A stretch of DNA of 64,000 bases from Alphaproteobacteria bacterium (GTDB lineage Bacteria; Pseudomonadota; Alphaproteobacteria; Puniceispirillales; Puniceispirillaceae), in the NCBI GenBank assembly GCA_009920665.1, contig RFZL01000001.1, positions 1 through 64,000 on the forward strand, given 5' to 3'. Shown in pieces: positions 3,447 to 12,502 of the stretch; position 1 is the stretch's first letter; each line of letters starts with the position of its first letter. The notes under the pieces are model-generated. The model was given only the letters and a program-made list of their open reading frames with translations. It ran no database searches and was not told the DNA's origin. The translations under genes and the position numbers were made by a program.

Positions 3447-5270
3447 TCAGGACAGGCGCTGCGCGGCATCCTCGATCTCAATTTGCATGGCCTGTCCACC
3501 ACGGAAATGGTCGCGCCTTACCCGCCCCAGAATATGCAGCGGTGTGCCATCACGCGCCGCCAGCAATGCCTCGCCAAGCGGCGTGCCGCCAGCCTGGAAT
3601 GCGATCGCCGACAAGGTACCACCACTACCGTCATCAAGGCGGCAGGAAACATGCGCCCCATCGCGCCCCACTGCCTTGGCATAGCCGATCCGACAGTCGG
3701 GAAGCGCAAATCGCGGTTCCGGATTGCCACTTCCGAATGGCCCGAGCCGGTCAAGCCAGTCGACAAGTTCGGGCAAGACGCCGGCGGTGCTTAACAGGCC
3801 TGCCACCTGGCGCACCGGACGCGGCACCGCGCCGCCAATCTCGGCTTCAAAGCGCTGGCAGAGAAAATCATGGAATTCCGCCATGCGATCCGCCTCGACG
3901 GAAAACCCGGCTGCCATGTCATGTCCACCCCCGCCAGCAAGGATGCCGGCCTGCTGCGCCGCGATCACGGCGCTGCCAAGCCTGAACCCGGGGATCGACC
4001 GCCCTGAGCCCTTGCCAATGCCGGTCCCGCCATCGGCACCATCACCGAGCGCGACAACACAGGCCGGCTTGCCAAGTGCCTCGCGAAGCCGCCCGGCGAC
4101 GATCCCGATGACGCCTTCATGCCACACCTCGTGACCGACAAGAACGACCGGGCTGGCATCCTGCTGCACCGCCAGATCCATCGCGTGGGTGCGGATTTCC
4201 TGCTCAATTTCACGTCGGCGCTTGTTCAGTTCATCCAGCGAGGCGGCGATGGCGCCAGCCTCGTCGGCGGCATGCGCCGACAGCAGCCGCACGCCGAGAT
4301 CGGACTGGCCGATGCGTCCACCTGCATTGATTCGCGGGCCGAGCATGAAACCCAGCGTATGCCCGCTTGGCGGCGTGTTGAGGCCGGCCTGGTCGGCCAG
4401 GCAGGCAAGACCGATATTCGTGCGCTGCGCCAGCACTTTCAGCCCCTGCCCTACAAAGGCGCGGTTGACCCCGGTCAGTGGCACGACATCACAGACGGTG
4501 GCGAGCCCGACAATATCAAGCTGGCGGATCAGGTCCGGCGCCGGCCGCACGTCGGTGAACACCCCCCGGCCGCGCAGTTCGCGCAACAGTGCGACAAGAA
4601 GAATGAAGGTCACACCGGCAGCGCAGAGATGACCATAGGCGCCATCCTCATCCAGCCGATTCGGGTTGATGACGCTGTGCGCTGGCGGCAATTCCGGGCC
4701 GGCAAGATGATGATCGACGACGATCACATCCATGCCGGTTTCAGCCACGGCGGCAAGTGGCGCATGCGCGGTGATCCCGCAATCGACAGTCACAATCAGC
4801 CCGGCACCGCGTTCCTGTAGCGCATGGAGGGCGGCCGCATTGGGGCCGTACCCCTCGCGCATCCGGTCCGGAATGTGGACATCAACCACCAGACCAAGCA
4901 TGCCAAGCACATTGACCAGAAGCGCCGCCGCCGCCGCCCCGTCAACATCATAATCCCCGAAGACCCCGATTGGCGTTCCGGCCTCGACGGCATCGGCAAG
5001 CCGCGCTGCCGCGCGGTCCATATCGCGAAAGCGTGACGGGTTGGGCAACAGGTCGCGAAGCTTCGGTTCCAGAAACTGGTCAATCGTCAGATCGCCAAGA
5101 TCACGGCCGGCGAGGATTCTGCTGACCGGAAGCGGCATGTCGGTAAATTGCTGGGAAATGGCGGCGGCGTGGCGGTCCAGCTCATCTCCCTCGCGGATCG
5201 ATTGCGCCGGCTCCCACCGCGCATTTGTCAGCGACGATTCGACACCGAGAAAGGCCGCCCTGCCGTCCAA
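3447..5270 (-). CDS. recJ: Single-stranded-DNA-specific exonuclease RecJ
   Basis: DHH family motifs (FGDYDVDGAAAAALL, VDHHLAG), full length. Confidence 0.95.
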   Translation of the reverse strand: MDGRAAFLGVESSLTNARWEPAQSIREGDELDRHAAAISQQFTDMPLPVSRILAGRDLGDLTIDQFLEPKLRDLLPNPSRFRDMDRAAARLADAVEAGTPIGVFGDYDVDGAAAAALLVNVLGMLGLVVDVHIPDRMREGYGPNAAALHALQERGAGLIVTVDCGITAHAPLAAVAETGMDVIVVDHHLAGPELPPAHSVINPNRLDEDGAYGHLCAAGVTFILLVALLRELRGRGVFTDVRPAPDLIRQLDIVGLATVCDVVPLTGVNRAFVGQGLKVLAQRTNIGLACLADQAGLNTPPSGHTLGFMLGPRINAGGRIGQSDLGVRLLSAHAADEAGAIAASLDELNKRRREIEQEIRTHAMDLAVQQDASPVVLVGHEVWHEGVIGIVAGRLREALGKPACVVALGDGADGGTGIGKGSGRSIPGFRLGSAVIAAQQAGILAGGGGHDMAAGFSVEADRMAEFHDFLCQRFEAEIGGAVPRPVRQVAGLLSTAGVLPELVDWLDRLGPFGSGNPEPRFALPDCRIGYAKAVGRDGAHVSCRLDDGSGGTLSAIAFQAGGTPLGEALLAARDGTPLHILGRVRRDHFRGGQAMQIEIEDAAQRLS

Positions 5271-7675: not shown

Positions 7676-8215
7676 TCACAGGTTGGTCGCGCTGCGTGCC
7701 GCCTGGTCATACAATCCTGACAGCACGCGCAGCTGGCGTGCCAGTTCGGACAGGCTGTCGGCATCAACCTCACCAAGTGCAGAAAAGGCATCAACGAGGC
7801 AGGCCTCGCGAATTGCGCGGTAGCGCCGGATCAGGTCACGCCCACGATCGGTCGTCGAATAAAGAACCTCCTTGCCCTGTTTCTCGCCGCTGATCAGCCC
7901 GGCCCTGATCAATTTCTTCAGGGCATAGTTGACGACATGCGTGTCCTCGACATTCAACTTGAAGCAGATATCGGCGAGTTTCTTGGCACGTCCCCGGTGA
8001 TTGACAGAATGCAGGCTCAGAATGTCGATCACGCCAAGGTCGGCCATCTCCGGAAAATCCGCCTGCGCTGCCGCAGTGCCGCGTACCATCCACAACCCAA
8101 AGGCATTGCTGGCGACGATCAGGCCATATTCAACCTCGCTCAGCTCGGCAGCCTTGTCGGACACCAGATGCGCCGATGACACGATCCGCCGTCCTTCCTG
8201 TCTTTCAATGCCCAT
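7676..8215 (-). CDS. MarR-family / winged-helix transcriptional regulator
   Basis: Winged-helix pattern ...LGVIDILSLHSVNHRGRAKKLADICFKLNVEDTHVVNYALKKLIRAGLISGEKQGKEVLYSTTDRG. Confidence 0.75.
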   Translation of the reverse strand: MGIERQEGRRIVSSAHLVSDKAAELSEVEYGLIVASNAFGLWMVRGTAAAQADFPEMADLGVIDILSLHSVNHRGRAKKLADICFKLNVEDTHVVNYALKKLIRAGLISGEKQGKEVLYSTTDRGRDLIRRYRAIREACLVDAFSALGEVDADSLSELARQLRVLSGLYDQAARSATNL

Positions 8216-8231: not shown

Positions 8232-11200
8232 TCACTCTTCGGCCGGGCCAAAACCACCGCCACCCGGCGTTTCGATCACGAAAACATCACCCGGTGCCAT
8301 CTGGCGAAGATCGGTCGCCGTCAGCTCTTCAATACTGCCATCGGTGCGTTCGACCCAGTTGCGGCCGACAGCCCCATCATCCCCGCCGGCCATGCCATAG
8401 GGCGGCACAATGCGGTGGTTGGCGAGAATGACCGCCTCCATCGATTCAAGGAAACGGGTGCGCCGTCGCACCCCATTGCCGCCACGATGCCGGCCGGCAC
8501 CACCCGACCCGGTGCGGATCTCGAAACTCTCCAGCAACACCGGATAGCGCCATTCCAATATCTCCGGATCGGTCAGGCGGCTGTTCGTCATATGCGTATG
8601 GACAGCGTCGCACCCGTCGAAATCCGGTCCGGCGCCCGACCCGCCGCACAGCGTCTCGTAATACTGGTAGGTGTTATTGCCATAGATGAAATTGTTCATC
8701 GTGCCCTGCGCCGCCGCCATCACGCCGAGCGCGCCATAGAGCGTGTCGGTAACGATTTGCGAGGTTTCGACATTGCCGGCGATCACCGCCGCCGGATATT
8801 GCGCCTGCAGCATGCAATCCTCGGGAAGGATGATGGTGATCGGTTTCAGGCAGCCTTCATTCATCGGAATGTCGTCATCGACAAGCGTCCGGAAAACATA
8901 GAGAACAGCCGCCCGGCATACCGCGGCCGGCGCGTTGAAGTTATTCGCGCCCTGCGGGCTGGTGCCGGTGAAATCAACCGTTGCTGCGCGGTTCTCGTGG
9001 TCGATGCTGATCTTCACCTTCACATGCTGGCCATTATCCATCGGATAGGTGAATTCACCATCTCTGAGAACGTCGATCACCCGCCGCACCGATTCCTCGG
9101 CGTTGTTCTGGACGTGGGTCATATAGGCAAGAACCGTATCGAGGCCGAACTGCGCGACCATCTTCTGAAGTTCCTGGACGCCCTTTTCGTTTGCGGCAAG
9201 CTGCGCCCGCAGATCGGCGATATTCTGTTCGACATTGCGGGCCGGATACAGCGCGCCCTCAAGCACCTCGATCATCTCCGCCTCGCGATAGATGCCCTGG
9301 TCGACAAGCTTGAAATTATCGATCAGAACGCCTTCCTCGTCGATATGCGCCGAATCAGGCGGCGCCGATCCCGGCGTCTTGCCGCCGACATCCGGATGGT
9401 GCCCGCGGCAGGCGACAAAAAACAGGATCCCGTCATTCTCGAACACCGGCGTGATGATAGTGATATCGGGAAGATGCGTGCCGCCATTATAGGGGTTGTT
9501 CAGCACATAGGCATCGCCCGGTCTGATGCTGCCCTCATTGTCGCGAAGCACCGCCCGTACCGATTCCCCCATCGAGCCGAGATGTACCGGCATATGCGGG
9601 GCGTTGGCGATCAGCGAACCGGTGGAATCGAAGATGGCACAGGAGAAATCAAGCCGCTCCTTCACATTGACCGAAAGCGCCGTGTTCTGGAGCGTGTAGC
9701 CCATCTGCTCGGCGATCGACATGAACAGGTTGTTGAACACTTCAAGCATCACCGGATCGCAGTCGGTGCCGATGGCGACCCGTTCTGGCCGCGCCACCAC
9801 GCGGCGCAGCACCAGATTGCCGATTTCCGTCATCTCGGCCTGCCAGCCGGGCTCGACAATCGTCGTTGCCGTCGCCTCGATAATCAGCGCCGGCCCGTCA
9901 ACCTTGCCACCAGCCGGGATCGCGTCACGGTAATGGACCGGTGCGGTGACCGGCTGACCGCCCATATAGGCATCAACCATTATCTGTGCGCCGCCCGCAT
10001 CGGTCTTCGCGATATGCGGCGCTGTTTCCACATCGAAGGTCAGGCCGATCGTCTCTACCGAGAGGGTCGCGGCGATCACCTTTTTGCCTGGCATCAGAAA
10101 GCCGAAACGTGACCTGTAGGCACGTTCATAGGCAGCTTCCATTTCGTCAACCGCACCATAGGGCACCTCGAGCGCGGTGTCCGACCCGTCATAGCGAAGA
10201 TGCACATAGCGCCGTGTCTCGGTGCGGTCGGCGGCGATCCCCTGACCGGCCACCTCGGCCTTGGAAATGGCGGCGAGTTCGTCAAGCTCGCGCACGAGCC
10301 GCGGCACCAGCGCGTCGGTCAGTGGTGCCTCGATGGTCCGCTCACGAAGTGCCCGTACATCGGCAAGCCCCATGCCATAGGCCGACAGCACACCGGCAAA
10401 GGGATGCACAAGAACCGTATTCATGCCAAGCACATCGGCGATCAGGCAGGCATGCTGGCCACCAGCACCGCCAAAACATTGCAGCGCGTAGTTGGTGACA
10501 TCATAGCCGCGCTGTACGGAGATCTTCTTGATCGCATTAGCCATGTTCTCGACCGCGATCCGCAGGAACCCGTCGGCAAGCTCCTCGGGCGTGCGGCGAA
10601 TGCCGGTCGCCACCTCGACCTCATCGGCCATCGCGGCGAATTTCGTGCGCACCGCCGCGGCATCCAGCGGCGCGTCCTGATCCGGACCAAAGACATGTGG
10701 GAAGAAGTCAGGCTGCAGCTTGCCAAGCAGGCGCTTTCCGGCCCGACACGGAACCGCGCGCCGTCAAACTGGCAGAGCGACCCGCCGCCCGCCGCCACCG
10801 TATGGATCAGCAGCATTGGCGCCTGCATCCGCACGCCGGCGACAACGGTCTCGAAGACACGTTCATAGGCGTTTTCGTAATGCGCGACATCGGTCGAGGT
10901 GCCACCCATGTCAAAGGTGATGACCTTGTCGAAGCCGGCCTGCTCGGCGGTACGCACCGCACCGACGATGCCACCTGCCGGCCCTGACAGGATGGCGTCC
11001 TTGCCCTGGAACAGGCTGGCCCCCTTCAGTCCGCCATTCGACTGCATGAATTGCAGGTTCACACCGCCAAGAGCACCGGCAATGCGATCGATATAGCGGC
11101 GCAGGATCGGTGACAGATAGGCATCCGCCACGGTGGTGTCGCCGCGCCCGACAAATTTGATCATCGGGCTGGTGCCATGGCTTGTCGAAATCTGGGTGAA

Positions 11201-11791
11201 GCCGATCTCGCCAGCCAGTTCGGCAATCCGCAATTCATGATCGGGAACACGATAGGCATGCATCAGCACGATGGCGATCGACCTGATACCGTCATCAAAG
11301 GCCGCCTGCAGGCGCGGACGCAAATCATCAAGGTCAAGCGGTGTCAGAACGCGGTCACCGGCGTCGATACGCTCGCGCACCTCCTCGACCCGCTCATACA
11401 GCATCTCGGGAAGCGTGATCTGCATGTCGAACAAACGCGGGCGCGCCTGATAGGCAATCCGCAACTGGTCGCGGAACCCCTCGGTCACGACAAGCAGGGT
11501 CCGGTCTCCCTTGCGCTCCAGCAGCGCGTTGGTGGCCACCGTGGTGCCCATCTTGACCGCATCGATGGCGGACTCGGGAATTGGTGCGCCATCGGACAAT
11601 GCCAGCAGATCGCGGATACCCTGCAGCGCCGCATCCTGATAGGCCTCGGGATTTTCCGACAAAAGCTTGTGCGTATGGAGCGTGCCGTCAGGCGCCCGCC
11701 CGACCACATCGGTAAAGGTGCCGCCACGGTCGATCCAGAATTGCCAGCCCGCGAGTTTGACCCCTTCAGCTTTTGCCGCTGCGCCGTCCAT
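8232..11791 (-). pseudogene. 5-oxoprolinase / hydantoinase A-B fusion, split into two ORFs by an internal deletion/frameshift at ~10727-10735
   Basis: N-terminal ORF (10442..11791) matches hydantoinase A up to FRVGPESA; C-terminal ORF (8232..10652) resumes at [14 protein letters not shown] in another frame and continues through hydantoinase B; the expected [22 protein letters not shown] block is missing. Confidence 0.85.
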
Positions 11792-11826
11792 GATATGCCT
11801 GCCTGATGATGTTGATGCTCAGAACA

Positions 11827-11864
11827 ATAACGTTGATAAAGTGTCGACAATTTGTCAACGTTAT
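11827..11864. promoter_or_regulatory. 38-bp near-perfect palindromic operator candidate in divergent promoter
   Basis: ATAACGTTGATAAAGTGTC|GACAATTTGTCAACGTTAT; 17 of 19 positions per arm symmetrical. Confidence 0.75.
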
Positions 11865-11878
11865 TTGAAGCGAGAAGC

Positions 11879-12502
11879 ATGTCTCTTGAACTGTTCCTTC
11901 CCTTCCTTCTCGCCACGGCCATCCTGCTGGCGACGCCGGGGCCAACAATCCTGCTTGTGCTGTCATACGCGCTGGCGCAGGGGCGCGGAGTCGCCCTGGC
12001 GGTGGTGGCCGGGGTAATGCTTGGCGATCTGCTGGCAATGACGGCGACGCTGTTGGGGCTGGGCGTGATCCTCGCGACCTCGGCGCTGCTGTTCACCGTG
12101 ATGAAATGGGCCGGCGCGATCTATCTGGCATGGATGGGGTGGCAGATGATCCGATCCGCCAGCACGGCATCAGTAAATCTCGCCGAGATTTCGTCGCGTT
12201 CACATATGGCGGCGTTCCGCGACAGCGCGCTTGTCACCCTTCTCAACCCTAAATCAATCGGCTTCTTCATCGCCTTCGTGCCGCAATTCATCGATACAGG
12301 CGCGCCGGCCGGCCCGCAATTCGCGGTGATGATCGCCACCTTTGTCGGGCTTGGCGGGGCGAACGCGCTGGCCTATGCGCTGCTGGCCGGACATCTTCGC
12401 CGGCATGTCACAAGCCCAGGTCTCGTTGCCTGGCTGCGCCGGTGCGGCGGCGGTGTTCTCATTGCCATGGCGGCGTTCACCGCCACCCTGCGCCGGGTCT
12501 AG
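11879..12502 (+). CDS. LysE/RhtB family amino-acid exporter
   Basis: MSLELFLPFLLATAILLATPGPTILLVLSYALAQGRGVAL typical LysE N-terminus. Confidence 0.92.
   Translation: MSLELFLPFLLATAILLATPGPTILLVLSYALAQGRGVALAVVAGVMLGDLLAMTATLLGLGVILATSALLFTVMKWAGAIYLAWMGWQMIRSASTASVNLAEISSRSHMAAFRDSALVTLLNPKSIGFFIAFVPQFIDTGAPAGPQFAVMIATFVGLGGANALAYALLAGHLRRHVTSPGLVAWLRRCGGGVLIAMAAFTATLRRV

Follow-up and report, generated by a model that had tools for sequence, protein, structure and literature searches.

A predicted MarR-type operator of 11-bp palindromic units at a 5-oxoprolinase-type locus in SAR116-like bacteria and other Proteobacteria

Regulation of 5-oxoproline use by a dedicated repressor is known from C. 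glutamicum, where, according to the excerpts of PMC13274462 that we consulted, the GntR-type protein PxpR represses pxpTABC, binds 5-oxoproline with a KD of 726 nM and has as its site a 17-bp inverted repeat, agattgttcaacaatct, before the operon. The same excerpts describe the B. pertussis receptors DctP6 and DctP7 (Rucktooa 2007, as cited in PMC5812351 and PMC13274462), whose structures were solved with 5-oxoproline (KD 0.3 uM for DctP7) and whose genes are located close to one encoding a eukaryotic-type 5-oxoprolinase. No regulator or operator for this B. pertussis system is described in the consulted excerpts of the two papers. A loose architectural analogy is offered by QacR, a TetR-family protein, two dimers of which bind cooperatively to a single long dyad, on overlapping palindromes with shared base pairs (PMC6018408); it differs in fold and spacing from the site considered here.

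The locus that we describe resembles the PxpR system, as far as the excerpts of PMC13274462 present it, in that a dedicated local repressor is predicted to act at an inverted repeat on genes for 5-oxoproline uptake and 5-oxoprolinase. The two differ in regulator and site (GntR-type with a 17-bp repeat in C. glutamicum, as opposed to MarR-type with a 38-44-bp, 11-bp-periodic palindrome here) and in the genes controlled (PxpABC enzyme and PxpT transporter, as opposed to a fused HyuAB and, in other taxa, a TRAP system). The system in our window has neither a GntR regulator nor the agattgttcaacaatct repeat and is a functional analogue of PxpR at most. The B. pertussis DctP6/DctP7 system (2PFZ/2PFY), in the excerpts of PMC5812351 and PMC13274462, has a gene neighbourhood of the same kind as the Bordetella marR-hyuAB locus discussed below; unlike it, the window locus lacks TRAP genes. 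We found no MarR-type 5-oxoprolinase regulator or half-site in a literature search that had subscription papers and RegPrecise outside its scope, and no four-unit 11-bp MarR array in the literature searched. What we propose is a MarR operator whose repeats are arranged unusually; a GntR-type 5-oxoproline repressor is already known, and priority is unproven.

The window, that is, the whole 64-kb stretch of DNA analysed, belongs to a 2.69-Mb, 214-contig assembly. Along its minus strand, hyuAB is followed by the MarR-type gene, a zinc-type alcohol dehydrogenase gene and a homoserine dehydrogenase gene, and a LysE gene diverges from them. This gene order suggests an operon that would include marR. 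The features of the locus are:

7676-8215, minus strand: putative dyad-binding MarR-type winged-helix regulator (PF13463 HTH_27), separated from the end of the co-directional hyuAB by 16 bp
8232-11791, minus strand: hyuAB, fused hydantoinase/5-oxoprolinase-type gene, in two frames in the window
11827-11864, no strand assigned: reported 38-bp dyad, highly conserved core, 17/19 arm matches
11879-12502, plus strand: LysE/RhtB-family exporter, divergent, 14 bp from the dyad

Intact relatives of hyuAB consist of one open frame of ~1,220 aa. Compared with that of genome G002, the window copy lacks 67 bp near 10730, a frameshifting deletion that breaks the gene into two ORFs and that reflects either a pseudogene in this strain or an error in the MAG assembly. 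Hydant_A_N, Hydantoinase_A and Hydantoinase_B are all present across the two pieces, in the fused HyuA and HyuB layout of ~1,200 aa typical of eukaryotic-type 5-oxoprolinase. No curated NCBIfam equivalog reached its cut-off for hyuAB. The relatives of HyuAB include N-methylhydantoinase and caprolactamase, which counts against reading the locus as a 5-oxoproline operon.

A preliminary description of this DNA had reported a near-perfect 38-bp palindrome between hyuAB and LysE, with 19-bp arms and two asymmetrical positions. Our recount agrees in form, coordinates and gene distances: the arms (11827-11845 and 11846-11864) match at 17 of 19 pairs, the two asymmetric pairs comprising four bases, and extension to 11826-11865 gives 18/20 matches. 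The LysE ATG (11879) is 14 bp beyond its right end, and ~35 bp separate its left end from the hyuAB ATG (11791, minus strand). It is the sole spacer-free dyad with 19-bp arms and at least 15/19 matches in the 64-kb window. Because dyads with at least 17/19 matches are expected by chance at 7e-4 (~0.0007) per 64 kb, and none with at least 16/19 arose in a first-order Markov simulation of 12 x 64 kb (768 kb), a chance origin is unlikely, as had been supposed from the length and precision of the palindrome.

The dyad is retained in syntenic loci of relatives, and in this respect it withstands the refutation that the preliminary description had set out. It is present in 10 of 10 hyuAB promoters from two SAR116-like genera (the regions upstream of hyuAB in eight same-genus genomes and in two of another genus of the family). 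In these promoters, the symmetric block from about -16 to +16 around the dyad centre is conserved, with 17 of 36 columns invariant, and the flanks have diverged. When the SAR116-like genomes were searched with a sequence-only model of the ten sites, none had more than one strong site, and every such site lay at hyuAB. Long near-perfect palindromes are found in terminators, transposon ends and RNA hairpins too, so that the dyad might instead be a structural element of this kind, or simply a chance palindrome. It matches no known RNA family in Rfam, however, carries no terminator signature that we could find, which led us to reject a terminator or RNA hairpin, and occurs once per genome; its conservation is confined to the symmetric block and common to several classes, and the chance expectation is the low figure given above. 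The conservation data effectively refute such an origin, to which we assign a negligible probability.

Less constant is the gene on the other side of the dyad. The divergent gene encodes LysE in five same-genus genomes, a cupin-like protein in three relatives (G001, G002 and G003) and, in G023, a Sel1/TPR-like protein (a name read from its sequence) whose start is ~180 bp away; in more distant relatives it is a TRAP receptor gene. Because this neighbour changes among LysE, cupin and Sel1-like protein, the dyad follows hyuAB and marR rather than LysE, and we rejected LysE as its conserved partner. One could still suppose that the exporter is the main target and that the regulator controls amino-acid export, given that LysE adjoins the dyad in the five genomes and lies only 14 bp from it in the window. 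This is very unlikely: the dyad persists without an adjacent LysE (the neighbour is a cupin in G001, G002 and G003, and G013 and G023 gave no LysE match close to the site), and the 58%-identical LysE of G025 has no dyad beside it. The earlier suggestion of control in both directions is supported for hyuAB; on the LysE side, where the neighbour varies among relatives, it is the position of the dyad that hints at co-regulation.

The cupin-like genes (L067, 7213-7563; L068, 6721-7068; L069, 8395-8739) encode proteins with a weak match of the 3-hydroxyanthranilate dioxygenase type. No cupin gene lies between the operator and LysE in the window.

MarR-family proteins usually behave as local repressors with palindromic operators, and the gene at 7676-8215 encodes a protein of this superfamily. 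The HTH_27 domain (PF13463) occurs in 37/37 members of the regulator family and MarR_2 in 19/37, the window protein matching the former and not the latter. An AlphaFold model from a 37-row alignment (pLDDT 87, pTM 0.80) shows the arrangement of a MarR protein, and MarR structures are its best Foldseek matches, with modest TM-scores; domains and predicted structure together identify a MarR-superfamily winged-helix protein. Among the nearest solved folds to the model are MexR and the Bordetella regulator BpsR (6-hydroxynicotinic acid), which share with it the MarR fold and are not close relatives in sequence. In a PDB search, phmmer found no close sequence relatives of the regulator in the PDB, and a profile search gave only weak matches. 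The closest named relatives of the regulator come from assemblies of the SAR116/Puniceispirillum group, to which the window's family probably belongs. Judging by the co-occurrence of gene and site, this local MarR-like gene is the best candidate for encoding the binder of the dyad.

We measured that co-occurrence with a symmetric weight matrix derived from the ten SAR116-like sites, which were excluded from the test. Among 25 loci outside the family in which hyuAB is close to a MarR-like gene, 20 show a positive-scoring site in the 350 bp before hyuAB (top score 45.7), as opposed to none of 26 hyuAB genes in genomes without a MarR-like gene (best score -3.5). The Mann-Whitney p value for this difference, 1.4e-6, is optimistic because related genomes share ancestry and are not independent. 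A scan of named genomes added 80 further loci and reached the Betaproteobacteria (Acidovorax, Cupriavidus, Bordetella and Azonexus). We also considered 82 long MarR loci (13 kb or more), a few of which are SAR116-like assemblies that were absent from training. A site scoring above 5 lies within 400 bp upstream of hyuAB, marR or dctP in 71 of these loci, compared with 0/196 random windows from the same loci. In both Alpha- and Betaproteobacteria, beyond the syntenic SAR116-like loci, the dyad is thus conserved alongside the MarR-like regulator. Conversely, a matrix built from sites outside the ten ranks the window dyad first in the 64 kb, at 38.9 versus 10.8 for the next-best position.

Where hyuAB or dctP is missing or rearranged among the 82 loci, the site stays with marR; in Betaproteobacteria with the gene order marR-hyuAB, it is found in front of marR, and in some loci dctP is preceded by a second site. 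In locus L112, for example, sites at 4216 and 6279 precede one hyuAB and the other dctP, which suggests a two-operon regulon in that lineage. A palindromic site in the promoter of the operon, conserved along with the regulator, is what characterizes a local autoregulated MarR operator, and we consider it very probable, on these comparative grounds, that the dyad is the operator of the MarR-type protein encoded just after hyuAB.

Two observations count against this reading. In nine of the 82 long loci, no site reaches a positive score. In addition, genome G003 keeps a dyad (L069, 8300-8333) and has no marR that we could find, either between hyuAB and adh (L069, 4491 to 4676) or elsewhere in its 81%-complete assembly. 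The G003 dyad is the most degraded of the ten, with the lowest matrix score, and is possibly an operator decaying after loss of the regulator. The same case would suit another, unlinked regulator, for instance of the GntR/FCD type, acting at the dyad, with marR linked to it only as part of a shared conserved cluster; half-sites of a similar kind do occur with other regulator families. Set against this are the tracking of marR by the site in the 82 loci despite absence or rearrangement of hyuAB and dctP, and the lack of any site at the 26 hyuAB genes from marR-less genomes, so that we regard an unlinked regulator as quite improbable and retain the MarR-type protein as the predicted binder.

The family-wide conserved block extends weakly to ~44 bp, built of 11-bp units, and its counterparts in the window are:

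11824-11867, no strand assigned: predicted operator, 44 bp in length, a palindromic array with 11-bp periodicity whose four units read ACAATAACGTT / GATAAAGTGTC / GACAATTTGTC / AACGTTATTTG
11835-11845, no strand assigned: hyuAB-side unit of the inner pair of 11-bp dyads, GATAAAGTGTC; GAYAAWWTRTC in the family consensus
11846-11856, no strand assigned: LysE-side unit of the inner pair of 11-bp dyads, GACAATTTGTC

The array is centred between 11845 and 11846, and its outer two units match the family consensus weakly in the window. Across 40 non-redundant outside sites, the consensus reads GACATAACGTT-GACAATTTATC-GATAAATTGTC-AACGTTATGTC, four 11-bp units of which the inner two are strongest, with information fading at about +/-22. 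Because the SAR116-derived matrix was used to gather these sites, the symmetry of their inner part is to some extent a product of selection; the outer units fall largely beyond that matrix. Autocorrelation of the conservation profile of the 40 sites peaks at lags of 11 and 22, and in a separate count with the 15-bp consensus TTGAYAAnTTRTCAA alone, the best dyad in these promoters most often has a second dyad 11 bp away. A spacing of 11 bp, or one helical turn, between units suggests that at least two dimers occupy the site, and the tandem-dyad architecture fits the initial proposal of a dimer or tetramer operator.

Evidence on the function of the operon comes from the genes accompanying the site. 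A hyuAB start is present in 61 of the 82 long loci, a dctP related to those of Bordetella and Aestuariispira in 53, and one or both of these genes in 75. The DctP encoded beside marR-hyuAB in Bordetella genomosp. 7 matches PDB 2PFZ with an E value of 5e-175, and that of Aestuariispira insulae matches 2PFY/2PFZ at about 1e-90. The simplest reading of these associations is a regulon for 5-oxoproline uptake and hydrolysis. The gene neighbourhood points to 5-oxoproline as the probable substrate of HyuAB, and linkage to a pyroglutamate-type DctP makes 5-oxoproline (pyroglutamate) a somewhat favoured candidate for the ligand of the regulator. Anaerobic indole-acetate degradation also employs a hydantoinase-like enzyme. 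We rejected indole-acetate catabolism as the pathway, having found no link to it in a search of papers, and the TRAP receptor matched pyroglutamate-binding proteins instead.

In the window's own genome, TRAP genes are missing from the hyuAB locus. Elsewhere in that genome (G000:C153:8933-9892, L277) is a gene for a DctP homologue that shares 43% identity with the pyroglutamate-type receptor, and no operator site was found there; an uptake gene of this kind is therefore not under the operator in this genome, which counts against reading the locus as a 5-oxoproline operon.

Taken together, we propose that a MarR-type repressor would bind the 11-bp-periodic site, most likely as at least two dimers, and would thereby cover the promoter of hyuAB as well as, in the window, the short stretch before LysE. 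It would hold the operon off, its own gene included, and would be autoregulated if marR is co-transcribed from the hyuAB promoter; a small ligand from uptake or metabolism, most likely 5-oxoproline, would then release it. Overlap of dyad and promoter is an assumption here, because a sigma-70 promoter scan gave no match at the threshold of the tool and no good -10 box near the dyad. An invariant TTGACA resembling a -35 element does lie inside the site in 10/10 SAR116-like promoters.

The missing -10 box also bears on the sense of regulation. Activators exist within the MarR family, and because no strong -10 box shows where the site lies with respect to RNA polymerase, the protein might bind the dyad as an activator or dual regulator instead of a classical repressor. 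We consider this unlikely, given that a site between two close divergent start codons, with an invariant TTGACA, has a position typical of repression, and that locally encoded catabolic MarR proteins are mostly repressors. Repression thus stays our preferred mode of action. The full proposal, in which several MarR dimers on a 44-bp operator of four 11-bp palindromic units control an undescribed, widespread proteobacterial 5-oxoproline regulon, is tentative, and we doubt it slightly more than we trust it.

These results turn a palindrome into a testable regulon, with a regulator family and a site, targets and ligand that are all predicted, in dozens of sampled Alpha- and Betaproteobacterial genomes. 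The four-unit, 11-bp operator would provide a clean case for how MarR dimers pack on DNA. If the proposal is true, the regulator would represent a second means of sensing 5-oxoproline, unrelated to the GntR-type PxpR, and biosensors for 5-oxoproline might be derived from it.
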